A stretch of 43,820 nucleotides of DNA, taken from contig JAGFND010000005.1 in assembly GCA_021409285.1 (NCBI GenBank), positions 1 through 43,820 on the forward strand, read 5' to 3'. The position numbers were made by a program, and so were the translations under genes. Every line of letters starts with the position of its first letter. The first letter of the stretch is position 1. Below the pieces are notes generated by a model. That model worked only from the letters and a program-made list of their open reading frames with translations. It did no database searches and was not told where the DNA came from. This DNA is from Candidatus Methanoperedens sp. (GTDB lineage Archaea; Halobacteriota; Methanosarcinia; Methanosarcinales; Methanoperedenaceae). Below, piece by piece: positions 26,930 to 37,741 of this stretch.

Positions 26930-28012
26930 TCACTGGAATTGAAACGGGACAGGCGTGACACACAGAAACCCCATGATAAAAATGAGCATCCCTAAAGCCA
27001 TTCTTCCTTTATCAAGCGGTATATCATCATTAAGAGGTTTGGGATGGCCTGAAGCTGCAAATAAAGAAAGCAGCAATCCCCAGAAAACCCACATGAAACC
27101 GTCTTTATTCTGGATATATGTCACATAGAATCCGAGCGAGATAAGGACAAATGGTAAAAAAGTCGAAATATGTGATGCTTTCTCACCTATCATGGCGCGA
27201 AGAACATGCCCGCCGTCAAGCTGGCCAGACGGGATCAGGTTAAGCGCAGTAACAAGCATCCCGACCCATCCAGCAAATGCCACAGGATGCCGCTGAACTG
27301 CTTCGTTTAACGGGATGAACCTGGTTATGAATTCGAACAGGGGGGGAATTGATAACGTGAACTGGAATCCGGTGTCTATCTGTGCAACAGGCGGCAGGAA
27401 AAGGCCAATGATTGTGACAATAATCGATACGATAAGACCTATGAGGGGTCCGGAAATCCCTACATCAAAAAGAGCTTTGCGGTTGGGTATCGGGCCTCTG
27501 TGCTTAATAACAGCTCCCATTGTTCCTATCAGGCTCGGAAATGGGATAAAATAGGGTAAAGAAGTATGCATTCCGTGTTTTTTTGCGATAAAATAATGTC
27601 CACATTCATGCGCCCCGAGGACGGTCATTATGGCGATCGTAAAGGGGATCCCTTTGAAAGCCTCAGAAGGATTTAATATCGGATCAGCTCCGAAAAGGAA
27701 CGATCCCATAAACATTGTGGTGATACAGGTGGCTGCAAAAAGCACGGCATTTATCCATCTGCGCTCATTTGCCTGCTTCCAGGGCGATGCTATAAGCATA
27801 TGTTCACCAAGTTCATATTTTGTGGTGAATTGCAGACCCTTTTCGGCAAAGACTGTCCATAATTTCGGATAGATTATTTTGCCATCTTCTTTCGGGATAC
27901 CGAAGAAATATATTATATCATCCTGCTGCTGAATATCATATATTGAGAAAAATGGACTTATCTTTTCAGCGAGTTCATCAACAATTTGAGATTCTTTGAG
28001 TTGATCGTTCAT
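26930..28012 (-). CDS. M50 site-2 protease family membrane metallopeptidase
   Basis: The 360-residue protein has an N-terminal soluble region (~1-85) and about six to seven transmembrane helices. HECGH (residues 135-139) and NLIPSGQLDGGH near residue 280 supply the zinc ligands of intramembrane site-2 proteases. ATG 28012 lies one base after the DUF35 stop, so it is the last gene of the mevalonate operon. Site-2 proteases release membrane-tethered regulators in other organisms; a link to lipid synthesis here is only suggested by position. Confidence 0.88.
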   Translation of the reverse strand: MNDQLKESQIVDELAEKISPFFSIYDIQQQDDIIYFFGIPKEDGKIIYPKLWTVFAEKGLQFTTKYELGEHMLIASPWKQANERRWINAVLFAATCITTMFMGSFLFGADPILNPSEAFKGIPFTIAIMTVLGAHECGHYFIAKKHGMHTSLPYFIPFPSLIGTMGAVIKHRGPIPNRKALFDVGISGPLIGLIVSIIVTIIGLFLPPVAQIDTGFQFTLSIPPLFEFITRFIPLNEAVQRHPVAFAGWVGMLVTALNLIPSGQLDGGHVLRAMIGEKASHISTFLPFVLISLGFYVTYIQNKDGFMWVFWGLLLSLFAASGHPKPLNDDIPLDKGRMALGMLIFIMGFLCVTPVPFQFQ

Positions 28013-28013
28013 C

Positions 28014-28421
28014 TCAGCGGGTTTTTGCCGGGGGTTGCGGGACAAATTTCGTACCATAATAAATCATCCCTTTCTCGCTCTCTTCTCCGAGTCTCCTGAA
28101 TACTGATATCACTCTCATCCCAATATGGATGTCATTGTGGTCGCATATCACCTGTGATGTCAGGCGCGGCCCCTCATCGAGTTTTATTATGGCAAGAATA
28201 TAAGGTGTCTGCTTCTCAAAATCCCTTGTAGCGCTATGTATTATAGTGTATGTCAGCACTTCTCCCACCCCATGGAATTTATGCGGGATTATTTTTCCTG
28301 TCCTCCTGCATTTCGGGCACATGTTCCTGGGAGGATAAAAATATCCTTTGCATTTCTCACAATGAGTGCCAATGAGATTATACAGGTTCTTTAGCCTTCT
28401 CCAGAATCTTGGAACTGACAT
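28014..28421 (-). CDS. DUF35 zinc-ribbon/OB-fold protein of the thiolase-HMGCS complex
   Basis: The 135-residue protein has a rubredoxin-like zinc ribbon (Cys21, 24, 35, 38) and an OB-fold (GVGEVLTYTIIHS...). In methanogens a DUF35 protein bridges acetoacetyl-CoA thiolase and HMG-CoA synthase and holds a shared CoA site, letting the endergonic thiolase step be pulled by the next enzyme. The gene order HMGCS-thiolase-DUF35 with 2-base spacing supports that complex here. Confidence 0.92.
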   Translation of the reverse strand: MSVPRFWRRLKNLYNLIGTHCEKCKGYFYPPRNMCPKCRRTGKIIPHKFHGVGEVLTYTIIHSATRDFEKQTPYILAIIKLDEGPRLTSQVICDHNDIHIGMRVISVFRRLGEESEKGMIYYGTKFVPQPPAKTR

Positions 28422-28423
28422 AT

Positions 28424-29593
28424 TTATCTCTCCCTGCCAAAAATATGAACAACAGCCGTGCCGCCTGACCCTCCAACGTTATGAGTCAGGCCTATAGCAG
28501 CACCATCTATCTGGCGCTTCCCGGCGTCGCCCCGAAGCTGCATGGTAATCTCGACAGCCTGTTTCACACCTGTCGCCCCAACCGGATGGCCGCAAGCCTT
28601 AAGACCACCTGACGGATTTATCGGGATCTTGCCTCCAAGTGCAGTCAAGCCTTCGACGGTCGCTTTTCCACCTTCCCCTTTTTTCACGAAACCAAGATCC
28701 TCGATGGCACATATCTCAGCTATAGTGAAACAATCATGAACTTCAGCAAAACCAATATCATCTGGTGTTACTCTTGCCATTTTATAAGCCCTTTTGGCTG
28801 CTGCTGTAGTCGCATCGATAGTTGTTATATCCGGTCTATCATGAAGCGAAAGCGTACCGCTTGCCTGTGCTGAGGCTTTCACATATACCGGCGTGTCCGT
28901 ATATTTTTTGGCGATATCAGCAGGTGCGATGACAACTGCTGAAGCTCCATCTGTTATGGGAGAGCAGTCAAATACATGCAGCGGATCTGCTACCATGACC
29001 GAATTAAGCACTGTTTCTATGGATATCTCATTCTGGAACTGCGCTTTGGGATTCATTGTACCATTATGATGGTTCTTTACAGCGACTGATGCAAGTTGTT
29101 CCTGGGTTGTCCCGTATTTGTGCATGTGAAGCTTGGCTATCATTGCATAAAGGCCAGGGAACGTGGCTCCCATTACGCCTTCCCATTCCCTGTCAGCTGC
29201 TGCTGCAAGGGCGTCAGTGGTAGTCTCGACATCCACATCGGTCATTTTTTCAGCTCCGCCTGCTACTACTATGTCATGATATCCAGACGCTACAGCGATG
29301 ATGCCCTGCCTCAGCGCCAACCCTCCGGACGCGCATGCTGCCTCCACGCGCGTTGAAGGGATATGCAGGCCTGCAAGCCCCGCATAATCAGCGATCAATG
29401 CACCAAGATGCTCCTGCTCTATGAACCTGCCTCCGCTCATGTTCCCTATATAAAGAGCATCCAGTTCCCCACCCTGGACATTTGCATCTTCGATGGCGCT
29501 GATCCCCGCTTCCACAAATATTTCCCTGAATGATTTATCCCATAATTCGCCGAATTCAGTACATCCGACTCCGATAATTGCTACGTCTCTCAT
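28424..29593 (-). CDS. acetyl-CoA C-acetyltransferase (archaeal thiolase)
   Basis: This thiolase condenses two acetyl-CoA to acetoacetyl-CoA, the first step of the mevalonate pathway. The nucleophile is Cys87 (EAACASGG). HDCFT supplies a catalytic His, and GHPVGATG the C-terminal His motif. The 389 residues suit the archaeal SCP2-type enzyme. GGTGA precedes the ATG. It sits between HMG-CoA synthase (21-base gap) and DUF35 (2-base gap), consistent with a channelling complex. Confidence 0.93.
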
Positions 29594-29614: not shown

Positions 29615-30655
29615 TTATAACTTTATCTTGCCTTTATGTTTCGCATATGTTGCATAATTAATATAAATGGGATCAGCCAGAAGCTCTTCAACGCTTGGCG
29701 CGCCATTTCGTATCTCATCTATCCTGTCTGTCACGCTTATGCTAAAAGCGTCACTTCCTGCCCCTGAGCCAAAAGCGGTCATAAAAATCTTATCTCCTGG
29801 TTTTGCGATATCAAGGGTTGCTGCAAGACCCATCATACAGGAACCCGAATACGTATTACCCAGGCGTGGGACCACAAGACCAGGTTTTATCTGTTCATTT
29901 GAGAAGCCCAGCATCTTTGCTACTCTTGAAGGGAACTTGCCATTAGGTTGATGGAATACTGCATAATTATAATCAGATGGTTTTGTTCCCATCCTCTGCA
30001 ATAAACCCGAAGATGCAGAGGTGACGTGCTTAAAGTAGCCCGGCTCTCCGGTAAATCGTCCTCCGTGTTCCGGATATGGCATTCCTTCCCTTCTCCAGAA
30101 GTCTGGCGTGTCTGTGGTATATGAATATGTTGAATCTATCTTTGCGATGAGGTCTTTCTTTCCGATGATATACGCGACACCACCCGCTGCTGCTGTAAAT
30201 TCAAGCGCGTCACCTGGAGCCCCCTGCGAAACATCAGAGCCTATCGCAAGCCCAAGATCAATCATTCCTGATTCTGCAAGTCCCATACATACCTGTATAG
30301 CCGCTGTTCCTGCCTTGCATGCAAATTCAAGATCAGCAGCTGTCATATTGGGCGTTGCACCGATTGCTTCCGCCACCACAGTGCTTGAGGGTTTCACAGC
30401 ATAAGGGTGGCTTTCCGAACCGGTATATACTGCTCCTATCCTTTCAGGATCAATGCCAGCCCTATTCACGGCATTGCGTGCTGCTTCTACGGCTATCGTG
30501 ATCGTATCTTCATCAAGATCGGGTACTGATTTCTCAAAAACCATTAGCCCGTCAATAATACTATTCGCATTTTCACCCCATACTTTTGCTATTTCTTCCA
30601 CTTTTATCCTGTAGCGTGGTATGTAAGCACCATACGAAACAATTCCAGCACTCAT
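29615..30655 (-). CDS. hydroxymethylglutaryl-CoA synthase
   Basis: HMG-CoA synthase makes HMG-CoA from acetoacetyl-CoA and acetyl-CoA for archaeal ether-lipid isoprenoids. The catalytic Cys113 lies in EFACKAGT, the Glu in VFEKSVP and the His in HQPNGKFP. The 346 residues match the archaeal form. The ribosome site GAGGT is 5 bases from the ATG. The XRE-regulator gene ends 47 bases upstream on the same strand. Confidence 0.95.
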
Positions 30656-30702: not shown

Positions 30703-31488
30703 TTATTGGTGTTTTGCATCATGTGATTGAAGTGCCCTGTTCAATTCATTAATTGGCATTACTGAAGAAATGAGTGGCACTCGTTCAATTTCAGCAATCT
30801 TAATGGCTATCGGGTCAACCTGCGATGCCAGGAGGCCGTGTATCACCACCAAAGCCGGTTTCAAATTCGTCACCCGCAGAGCCACCATTGGGGATCTGCC
30901 TGTCGAGACGTTTGTGAATATCATAGCTCTTTCAGAACTCCAGCCGTAAAGTTTCTGGAATTCATTGTATGAAAGCTGAAGGATGGCTTTTAAGCTATCT
31001 ATTATTGTGTATCCGTATAATGGTTTTATATGTTCGCTTGGAGGTATGTACGCGACTTCACCTTTTATTAGCTTTGTCATATCTTCTACGGATATCGGTG
31101 ACAGATATTCATGAATATCATAGATGACATCGGTATGAAAACCTCCCTGTAATATGCCTTCATAAGAGCGGATTTTTGCTCCTCCCCGTGCCACATCCAT
31201 ATCAAGGATGGAATCAACTATCTTACTTATTATAAATATCCCGGGAGATTTTCGTCTTCCGCTTTCGTAATCACTGATTACGGAAGGTGAAACTTTAAGG
31301 TTTGCAGCAAGATCAGTTTGAGAAATTTCAAACACAGAACGCCATTTTTTTAGAGTATCGCCAGGATTATCTGAGAGAGTTATCTCTCCTGCCATTTTTT
31401 CGGCAAGCCTGTTCCTTATATTTGAAACATTTCCATTTGTTCCGGAAACCGAAACAGACATGGAAGCATTAGCTGCATTTTCAGTCAT
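30703..31488 (-). CDS. XRE-type helix-turn-helix transcriptional regulator with C-terminal sensor-like domain
   Basis: The 261-residue protein has a low-complexity N-terminus, then a Cro/C1-type HTH at about 45-97 (ISQTDLAANLKVSPSVISDYESGRR). A C-terminal domain of about 150 residues (from GILQGGFHTDVIYDI) includes a Ser/Thr-Gly-Arg segment NVSTGRSPMVALRV. The architecture resembles the archaeal COG1709 regulators. It is the first gene before HMG-CoA synthase, so regulation of isoprenoid synthesis is likely, and a repeat-rich site lies at its own promoter. The ATG is within a few bases of the predicted start site. Confidence 0.85.
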   Translation of the reverse strand: MTENAANASMSVSVSGTNGNVSNIRNRLAEKMAGEITLSDNPGDTLKKWRSVFEISQTDLAANLKVSPSVISDYESGRRKSPGIFIISKIVDSILDMDVARGGAKIRSYEGILQGGFHTDVIYDIHEYLSPISVEDMTKLIKGEVAYIPPSEHIKPLYGYTIIDSLKAILQLSYNEFQKLYGWSSERAMIFTNVSTGRSPMVALRVTNLKPALVVIHGLLASQVDPIAIKIAEIERVPLISSVMPINELNRALQSHDAKHQ

Positions 31489-31511: not shown

Positions 31512-31522
31512 GCATATAAAAC
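31512..31522 (-). promoter_or_regulatory. TATA box of the regulator / mevalonate operon
   Basis: The minus strand reads GTTTTATATGC, centred about 29 bases before ATG 31488. This implies a nearly leaderless transcript. Confidence 0.55.
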
Positions 31523-31552
31523 TAACGAAGCTGACTTCGTCAAATAACGAAG
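31523..31552. promoter_or_regulatory. candidate operator: TAACGAAG repeats abutting the TATA box
   Basis: TAACGAAG occurs at 31523-31530 and again at 31545-31552, 22 bases (two helical turns) apart. An inverted CTTCGT at 31535-31540 forms a palindrome ACGAAG-CTGA-CTTCGT with the first copy. The array touches the upstream edge of the TATA box, where the BRE and TFB bind. Autoregulation by the XRE protein encoded next to it is the simplest reading. Confidence 0.6.
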
Positions 31553-31643: not shown

Positions 31644-32102
31644 ATGACTGATGGGCATTTTATTCAGAATAGAAACTTGAACAAGACAACTTTTCATTGC
31701 GATATCAGTATCTGCAATTCCATGTGCTGCCGGAACTGTCCGGTACTCACTCAGGATGAAGTCGCAGAGTTGATAGCGAATGTGAAAAAAAAATATGATG
31801 TCGACCTTGAGAGAAAAAGATATTTCAGATCCGCAAAAGGCGAGCATGGCCTTTATTTCTCAGTAAAGATGATAAAAGGACAATGCATCTTTCTGAACAG
31901 AGAAAAGCGCTGCCGGATATATGATTGCCGCCCGACCCTGTGTGAACTTTATCCTGCTATCGATGTGGATGCTGTTGATGAGAGGTGTCCCGGGATACAG
32001 AAAAATGAGTTCCATGAAGAAATGCTGGATGTTTTGAAAAAGAGGTATGCACAAGAGATCGATGAGAGAATCAAAAAAGAGCATACTTTCATGTTTGTTT
32101 AA
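31644..32102 (+). CDS. YkgJ-family cysteine-cluster (zinc/iron-chelating) protein
   Basis: The 152-residue protein shows the CX3CX3CCX2C-like N-terminal cluster (FHCDISICNSMCCRNC), CIFL, then CRIYDCRPTLCELYP, the pattern of the YkgJ/Fe-S oxidoreductase-like family. These proteins bind a metal or Fe-S cluster and their function is generally unknown. It stands alone, divergent from the regulator and convergent with rtcB (19-base gap). Confidence 0.8.
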   Translation: MTDGHFIQNRNLNKTTFHCDISICNSMCCRNCPVLTQDEVAELIANVKKKYDVDLERKRYFRSAKGEHGLYFSVKMIKGQCIFLNREKRCRIYDCRPTLCELYPAIDVDAVDERCPGIQKNEFHEEMLDVLKKRYAQEIDERIKKEHTFMFV

Positions 32103-35656: not shown

Positions 35657-37741
35657 TCATGCTGCGGGGAGAAATTCCTTTCCTGCAATCTTTTCCGCTG
35701 CCCTGAAAGCTATAGCAGCAATTGTTAGAGTTGGGTTCACTCCTACGGTGTCCGGGAAAACTGATCCATCTATAACATAAAGGTCGGGGTAAATCCTGGT
35801 CTTGTTCGATGAGCCGTCATTCCAGAATACATGGCCATAGCTGTCCACGACGCCATTTTCAATGTTATCCCCCATCGAACATCCTCCCAGGGGATGCAGG
35901 ACCACAGTCGAACTGCTCCCGGGTTCATCAAACTTCCAAAGAGGTGTGAATACCCTTTCCTCTCCTCCTTTTTCGATCTTTCCAGCTAATTTCTTCATTC
36001 CATCTAAAATGTCAGTGAATACCTTGTTGTTCTCTTGTGCTGACCATTCTATAAACAACTTCTCACCGGGGTCATTCTTATTCTCCATGTCTTTCCATTC
36101 CGGTTTTAGTTTCAGGATTCCAGGTATTTCACCATTGCCCATGCAAGAAAAGACAAAGAACTTTGAAAGGCGCTCCTCCGGGGTTGCATATGGATTTGCA
36201 TAATCAGTAGTTGCAAAAGTTAATAAACGCTCCATGAACCAGCGCGTGGTCTCATCTTCGATAGTTCTAATCTTAAGAATATTTCTAAGTACATTCCTCA
36301 CTTTATCATCATTCCATGCCTTTGATAATAGACTGGCCTGTTTTGTAAGTGATAATTTCCTGAAGATCAAGTCCATAGCCCCGAATCTATACAACAACCT
36401 TATATCTTGAGTTAAATTCTTCCAATAACTTCCCCCGATTTTTCCTTCTAAATCTGCGGTTAATTCAAGTATTGTGGCAAATGCAGGAGCAACCATCTTT
36501 GGAATTGTCGAATCTTCGATAGTATAAGCGAACTCCCTTTCTTGGGTCTTGAATGAGATGTGTGCTGTGTTTATAGGACCTCTTGTTATATCTATTAATC
36601 TGTTTTGAAGGGTCATGAAGCCAATCATATCACCATTTGTAAAGAACTTTTTTCCAAGAGTTTCACTCAATTTCAGGTGATTTTTTTCTTTGCATTTCAT
36701 TAGCACTTCATTAGAACCAAGAGTTCCTGCAGCAATTACAAGTATTTTTGCTCGCATATTTTTTGATTTTCGTTCCTCGGTTTCAGGATCATACTGAAAA
36801 TAACTGATAGTATATTTGTACTCCTCTTTTTCGTTGAATTCAATATCATATACCTCGCTAAGTTCATTTATTTCTAGCGGTTTCGGCGCAGCCGGAGGTT
36901 TAGGGTTCATGGCCTCAACAAACTTTTTGCTGAATGTATGCCTCGCTCCCGGAATGCATCCTAAAACACATCTTCCCTGTCTCTGGCAATCATTATTCTG
37001 CTTCAATAATCTCTCCACTTCTTGAGGAGAAGGTTGTGATACACCAAACAGTCCACCCGGTAGATTTGTTATCGATAAATCAGCATCAAAATCCCCAGTT
37101 TTTTTGCCGTCCTCGATTTTTGTATTGACTATATTTTGATTGCCTTCATCTATGAGTGCCTGTCCTGCTTCCTGAAAGACTTTGGTTTTTTCAAGCTTGT
37201 TCCCGCTTAATCCGGCATTAGTTGTTATCTTATTTACCCCGATGAAGGCTTTTGCAATATCAAAGTAATCTTCTAATTTTTTACCTTCTGATTGCATTGG
37301 CCAATCCCGATAAACACTCGGGTGAGGCGGTAACGTTACATTAGAATATATAAGTGAACCTCCCCCCAGGCCGCTAGCACAAATAACAGAAACATTGCCA
37401 AGAATCCTGAGATCGTAAAGACCTGTTTTACTCAACTCCCTTGCAGTTGATAAAAGCTCAAGAATCCCATTAACACTATCCGGATGAGCCCAAAAATGGT
37501 ACGGTTTCTTGCCATCTTCCAGAAATTCACGTATGTTAGGATTGGCTCTCCGTTTCTCCTTGGGGGTATAGTTCAATTCATGTGATATCCACCACTCACC
37601 CCGCTCCAGAACACAGACTTTCTTGTTTGTATGGTTATTTGAATTGTCATTTTCAAATTTATTCGCCAGAGAAAGGGCAAGTATTGTGCCGCCGAATCCG
37701 GAACCAACTACCACAGCTTCGAATTTATCATCTTGTGTCAT
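35657..37741 (-). CDS. large GMC-family (cholesterol-oxidase-like) flavoprotein oxidoreductase
   Basis: The 694-residue FAD enzyme has an N-terminal Rossmann motif VVVGSGFGGTILALSLA, a GLGGGSLIYSNV FAD loop, CX5CX3C at Cys252, 258, 262 (CQRQGRCVLGC), and the C-terminal HPLGGCSMG...VIDGSVFPDTVGVNPTLTIAA typical of GMC oxidoreductases. Such enzymes oxidise alcohols, often sterols or terpenoids; the substrate here is unknown. It has no signal peptide or membrane helix. TATATATTTA (~37812-37821) and GAGGAA before the ATG give a single-gene unit. The AT-rich look and mostly bacterial relatives of this type suggest lateral transfer. Confidence 0.88.
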   Translation of the reverse strand: MTQDDKFEAVVVGSGFGGTILALSLANKFENDNSNNHTNKKVCVLERGEWWISHELNYTPKEKRRANPNIREFLEDGKKPYHFWAHPDSVNGILELLSTARELSKTGLYDLRILGNVSVICASGLGGGSLIYSNVTLPPHPSVYRDWPMQSEGKKLEDYFDIAKAFIGVNKITTNAGLSGNKLEKTKVFQEAGQALIDEGNQNIVNTKIEDGKKTGDFDADLSITNLPGGLFGVSQPSPQEVERLLKQNNDCQRQGRCVLGCIPGARHTFSKKFVEAMNPKPPAAPKPLEINELSEVYDIEFNEKEEYKYTISYFQYDPETEERKSKNMRAKILVIAAGTLGSNEVLMKCKEKNHLKLSETLGKKFFTNGDMIGFMTLQNRLIDITRGPINTAHISFKTQEREFAYTIEDSTIPKMVAPAFATILELTADLEGKIGGSYWKNLTQDIRLLYRFGAMDLIFRKLSLTKQASLLSKAWNDDKVRNVLRNILKIRTIEDETTRWFMERLLTFATTDYANPYATPEERLSKFFVFSCMGNGEIPGILKLKPEWKDMENKNDPGEKLFIEWSAQENNKVFTDILDGMKKLAGKIEKGGEERVFTPLWKFDEPGSSSTVVLHPLGGCSMGDNIENGVVDSYGHVFWNDGSSNKTRIYPDLYVIDGSVFPDTVGVNPTLTIAAIAFRAAEKIAGKEFLPAA

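Follow-up and report, generated by a model that had tools for sequence, protein, structure and literature searches.

A conserved predicted operator at the BRE/TATA of the XRE regulator and HMG-CoA synthase operon in Candidatus Methanoperedens and its relatives

The membrane lipids of archaea have isoprenoid side chains, which are made via the mevalonate pathway. Several archaeal repressors, such as Phr, MDR1, LrpA, and NrpR, act at the BRE/TATA, and some archaeal activators recruit TFB/TBP, with archaeal activator sites lying just upstream of the BRE/TATA. An autoregulatory gene that heads a biosynthetic operon more often encodes a repressor. Tandem operators are used by the controller proteins of restriction-modification systems (C.BclI, C.AhdI, and C.Esp1396I), which are autoregulators of the Cro/C1 (XRE) family. 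A 'regulator', COG1709 (PAB0475), has been tabulated among proteins 'specific to all Archaea', in a passage that gives no operator, target, or ligand (PMC1852104). In the open-access library that was searched, we found no prior description of the operator presented here or of a dedicated archaeal mevalonate-gene regulator.

The window analyzed here, i.e., the whole stretch of 43,820 nucleotides, is contig C192 of a 2.78 Mb genome. Its minus strand carries, in this order and with short intergenic gaps, genes for an XRE regulator of 261 amino acids (30703-31488), an HMG-CoA synthase (HMGS) of the archaeal type (29615-30655; TIGR00748 and PRK04262 equivalogs over cut-off), an acetyl-CoA acetyltransferase (thiolase; 28424-29593; NF053570 equivalog over cut-off), and a DUF35 partner protein with a ChsH2-type OB fold (28014-28421; PF01796 and PF12172 over cut-off). 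An open reading frame for an M50-type peptidase (26930-28057, minus strand) shares 44 bp with the end of the DUF35 gene and may thus belong to the operon transcript. Elsewhere in the window, a 694-amino-acid reading frame (35657-37741, minus strand) resembles, by eye, a GMC-type FAD oxidoreductase.

The promoter of this operon reads, on the gene strand, TTCGTTATTTGACGAA-N6-TTCGTTA-N-TTTTATAT. The half-site F1 (TTCGTTA, 31545-31551, minus strand) and the inverted half-site R2 (ACGAA, 31536-31540, minus strand) form the 16-bp dyad O1 (TTCGTTATTTGACGAA, 31536-31551), which a 6-bp spacer separates from a third half-site, F3 (TTCGTTA, 31523-31529, minus strand). F3 overlaps the expected BRE position and is followed, after one base, by the TATA box TTTTATAT (31521-31514, minus strand), and F1, R2, and F3 succeed one another in steps of approximately 11 bp on one face of the helix. 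On the plus strand, the same bases appear as two copies of TAACGAAG (31523-31530 and 31545-31552), offset by 22 bp and the proximal one a single base from the TATA box, plus CTTCGT at 31535-31540, all at exactly the coordinates that an initial annotation of this DNA had assigned. The start codon follows the TATA box at a distance of about 25 bp, so the leader is probably very short or absent. Because the motif lies upstream of the TATA box, an RNA element was rejected.

The closest relatives of the regulator all come from Candidatus Methanoperedens and its kin, and its family is, we believe, COG1709. Its helix-turn-helix region (residues ~42-91) scores 29.9 bits with PF01381 (HTH_3), whose cut-off is 23, which places the protein in the XRE/Cro-C1 family, and HTH_3 was matched in all 38 members of the regulator family (set A1). 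Residues S67, S69, V70, S72, D73, Y74, and E75 of the recognition helix are invariant in 46 sequences, haloarchaeal ones included, as expected if the core of the half-site is itself invariant. The C-terminal region (residues ~120-260) gave no significant Pfam match, with no hit to DRTGG (PF07085) at E values of up to 1 in the 38 members, and a sequence search of solved structures returned relatives of the HTH only. In the AlphaFold2 model (pLDDT 85, pTM 0.64), the C-terminal domain was aligned by Foldseek with the DRTGG domain 2ioj (TM-score 0.72, normalized to 2ioj; probability 1.00; E 3.5e-3) and also with 3l31. The resemblance is one of fold, with no profile match, and hence we call the domain DRTGG-like rather than a DRTGG member. 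This modeled fold suggests a putative sensor domain, in which the conserved segment T-G-x-S-P-(M/L)-V-A-x-R-V (residues 196-206) may bind a ligand.

The sequence evidence suggests, with good probability, that positions 31514-31551 serve as the operator for the XRE regulator that the operon itself encodes, overlapping the BRE/TATA and most likely repressive; the protein encoded by the first gene very probably docks at this element. One regulator dimer would sit on O1, whose F1/R2 arrangement fits a Cro-type dimer, and a second dimer, or part of one, would occupy F3, for which the TATA box would supply a degenerate partner half. The centers of the two sites would then lie on the same face of the DNA at a distance of 22 bp (two turns). 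With F3 occupied, TBP/TFB would be blocked and the regulator, HMGS, thiolase, and DUF35 genes repressed (negative autoregulation), and the DRTGG-like domain may set occupancy by sensing an early metabolite of the mevalonate or CoA pool. It is from the position of the operator that we infer repression and feedback. The same position would also fit an activator: the same regulator, bound to the same operator at O1 and F3 upstream of the BRE, might recruit TFB/TBP, much as at known archaeal activator sites, and in three distant loci (L156, L157, and L159) a shift of the TATA box by about one helical turn has preserved its phase. However, F3 is only 1 or 2 bases from the TATA box, so that a protein bound there should clash with TFB, and the usual role of autoregulatory genes at the head of biosynthetic operons points to repression; we therefore regard activation as unlikely.

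If the element is an operator of this kind, its parts should be legible in related promoters. Among 80 fetched loci, the order regulator-HMGS-thiolase-DUF35 was found in nearly all those with long enough contigs, the exceptions being unlinked paralogs. The operon promoters of Methanoperedens, of ANME-2 and others, and of Methanosarcinaceae, treated as three separate groups, align without gaps, and only F1, R2, F3, and the TATA box are rich in information. In each group, the information per column is 1.9-2.0 bits in F3 and 1.8-1.95 in the TATA block, as against 0.62-0.66 in the O1-F3 spacer and 0.24-0.6 in the upstream flank; O1 is kept while the spacer and flanks are near random. All 75 aligned operon promoters have the core CG of both F1 and R2, the distance from F3 to TATA is conserved, and in several Methanolobus O1 is a perfect palindrome, TTCGTCAATTGACGAA. 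When a matrix trained on Methanosarcinaceae alone was used to scan whole loci on both strands, the operator was the top-scoring site in 45/45 other operon loci of the first set, the window included; in the window it scored 13.0 and the runner-up -7.9. The pattern TCG-N8-CGA-N7-TTCGTTA occurs in 105 of the 238 genomes of the class, at about one site per genome. Among the matches listed, 90 of 107 sites lie 14-199 bp upstream of a regulator gene on the same strand, and none was contradicted; two of the remaining 17 were confirmed through loci L152 and L164, so that at least 92 of 107 stand just upstream of an XRE gene. Some genera with no exact match have variants of the form TGCGACAATTGCCGAA-N6-ATTCGTTA (L051, L125, and L129). 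The initial annotation, which predicted an operator at the promoter of the gene for the mevalonate-operon regulator, was open to refutation by footprinting in relatives, and the outcome of that footprinting is strongly positive: conservation is very strong, tracks the regulator, and, in haloarchaea, follows HMGS. The same alignment rejects the palindrome ACGAAG-N4-CTTCGT, which had been put forward as the unit to search for. It has one exact match in the 2.78 Mb genome. Its outer G/C bases are not conserved, and it mostly reflects the 10-11 bp spacing of two half-sites. The symmetric unit that is conserved is F1/R2, TTCGT-N6-ACGAA, with a third half-site at the TATA box.

Searches of the window's own genome indicate how far the control might extend. 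The dyad TTCGTYATTTGACGAA and TTCGTTANNTTTATA were each found exactly only at the operon promoter, the runner-up to the former having two mismatches, and since TTCGTTANNTTTATA is unique it is not a general BRE/TATA sequence. TCG-N8-CGA-N7-TTCGTTA is likewise exact only there, with one other site at one mismatch, and loose matches to the 16-bp dyad were no more frequent than those to a reversed-pattern control. A wider regulon with other genes was therefore rejected at this sensitivity, there being no second exact site and no excess of near-matches over reversed-pattern controls, and the sequence suggests a regulon of one operon. A second target that we considered, the divergent CxxCxxCC (YkgJ-like) gene at 31644-32102, is not favored because the other loci showed no relative of this gene next to the operon. 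The feedback point that had been proposed for isoprenoid lipid synthesis is thus narrowed: a single-copy operator is consistent with local control of the first steps, and not with control of the entire isoprenoid pathway.

Loci in which the operon and the regulator are parted served as negative controls. The operator was not found at the unlinked regulator paralogs of Methanoperedens loci L033, L034, L035, and L037, and five genomes with two regulator copies (G043, G044, G045, G053, and G069) have one site each. Such second, unlinked copies are present in several Methanoperedens genomes (e.g., L033:2953-3780) and are 71-75% identical over the matched part. In genomes with no detectable regulator, the full element was present at 0 of 20 HMGS loci. 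Two of these regulator-less operons, L227 and L229, have kept TTCGTTAGATTTATATG but no longer have O1, as though sampled once the regulator was already gone. Thus, the operator occurs with the regulator at the regulator's own promoter and disappears with it, apart from the F3-like sequence at these two loci. The loss of O1 there indicates that O1 depends on the regulator, and the survival of TTCGTTAGATTTATATG that the conservation of F3 may in part reflect constraint on the BRE.

Of 148 genomes from across the phylum, 112 have the regulator, and the more distant ones appear to include Methanomicrobia-, Archaeoglobi-, Methanotrichaceae-, and Methanocella-like lineages. In these more distant families, diverged forms of the operator precede regulator-HMGS-thiolase-DUF35: TTCGTGAAATGTCGAA-N6-TTCGTTA in L161, L165, and L168, TCGTCATATGACGAACTCCTCTTCGTTAACTTTATAT in L164, and GTCAATTGTCGAA-N6-TTCGATAGATTTATAA in L155. 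O1 is retained and F3 decayed in L142, L145, and L153. In L156, L157, and L159, an extra half-site (TCGATA or CCGTTA) lies between F3 and the TATA box, which is shifted by about 11 bp; the operator looks as though extended by one helical turn.

Haloarchaea have a distinct type of HMGS (NF041302; matched in 97/97 genomes, 96 of them over cut-off), which is about 28% identical to that of the window. In several haloarchaea, the regulator gene is near HMGS, and the tripartite element stands upstream of the HMGS gene itself, as in L172 (TTCGACACCTGACGAA-CCACCC-ATCGACAGGCCCATATA). A genome-wide search of the 97 haloarchaeal genomes for TCG-N8-CGA-N8-TCGACA-N4-CATA gave 18 exact sites, against none for the reversed control, and 15 of the 18 precede HMGS by 25-30 bp. 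The looser CG-N8-CG-N10/11-CGACA was present in 35 of 40 further haloarchaeal HMGS promoters, mostly 59-60 bp before the ATG, against a shuffle rate of 0.0015; the other five have, by eye, two of the three half-sites. A TTCCGATACCC/TTCGATACCCTTTT-like motif was also seen before the regulator gene in L172, L174, L183, and L184, a sequence likeness that hints at, without clearly showing, autoregulation of the haloarchaeal regulator gene itself, retained besides the HMGS site. That the same element precedes a distinct HMGS suggests that HMGS is the step under control, and we take the element, judged by its sequence distribution, to exist to control HMGS; this haloarchaeal switch is in our ranking the strongest evidence. 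On balance, we lean slightly toward an ancestral, phylum-wide HMGS switch, in which an XRE protein with a DRTGG-like sensor would read a metabolite at the entry to the mevalonate pathway and set the supply of HMGS via the tripartite BRE/TATA operator; selection would then have acted on the control of this step and not on one promoter.

These distributions also bear on whether the XRE protein is the one that binds. Another transcription factor might use the site, with the XRE protein merely co-transcribed, and our assignment of the operator to the XRE protein is itself a prediction. This reading is quite improbable, however, given that HMGS lacks the operator in genomes lacking the regulator, that haloarchaea, in which the site has shifted to the HMGS gene, keep the regulator and often have it near HMGS, and that half-site and recognition helix are both invariant. 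Chance repeats, or an ordinary promoter with a strong BRE and no operator function, can be dismissed almost entirely, even though F3-TATA alone persists in two genomes lacking the regulator, since O1 is kept between near-random sequences, TTCGTTANNTTTATA is unique in the genome, and the haloarchaeal matches far exceed the shuffle rate, with the matrix scan further ruling out a chance repeat and the cross-class footprint effectively refuting it.

What we favor is therefore the autoregulatory operator, which would place a switch before the genes that start membrane-lipid (mevalonate) synthesis. A precise DNA element, a probable protein, and a single target are found together in a phylum that includes the tractable Methanosarcina and Haloferax, and hence, how isoprenoid supply is matched to membrane demand in archaea becomes directly testable. 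With HMGS as the controlled step, the logic would be comparable to the sterol-level control of HMG-CoA enzymes in eukaryotes.

Among described systems, the controller proteins have an HTH related to that of this regulator, C.BclI giving, with the HTH of EDF1/MBF1, the best natural match in both sequence and fold to its HTH. As is established for the controller proteins, the predicted layout places dyad operators at the promoter of the regulator's own gene, with a spacing of about two turns. In contrast to them, the promoter is an archaeal BRE/TATA, the second site consists of one half-site adjoining the TATA box, the target is a metabolic operon, and the regulator has a large C-terminal domain that C proteins lack. 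That domain aligns over ~130 columns with DRTGG proteins, namely AF1212 (PDB 2ioj) and the CBS-DRTGG region of the Clostridium perfringens pyrophosphatase (PDB 3l31/3l2b), but at 14-15% identity, and it is fused to an XRE domain rather than to CBS or pyrophosphatase domains. With Phr, MDR1, LrpA, and NrpR, this locus shares an operator that overlaps or abuts the BRE/TATA at the regulator's own or a neighboring promoter, whereas those repressors belong to other DNA-binding families, recognize other sequences, and serve other pathways.
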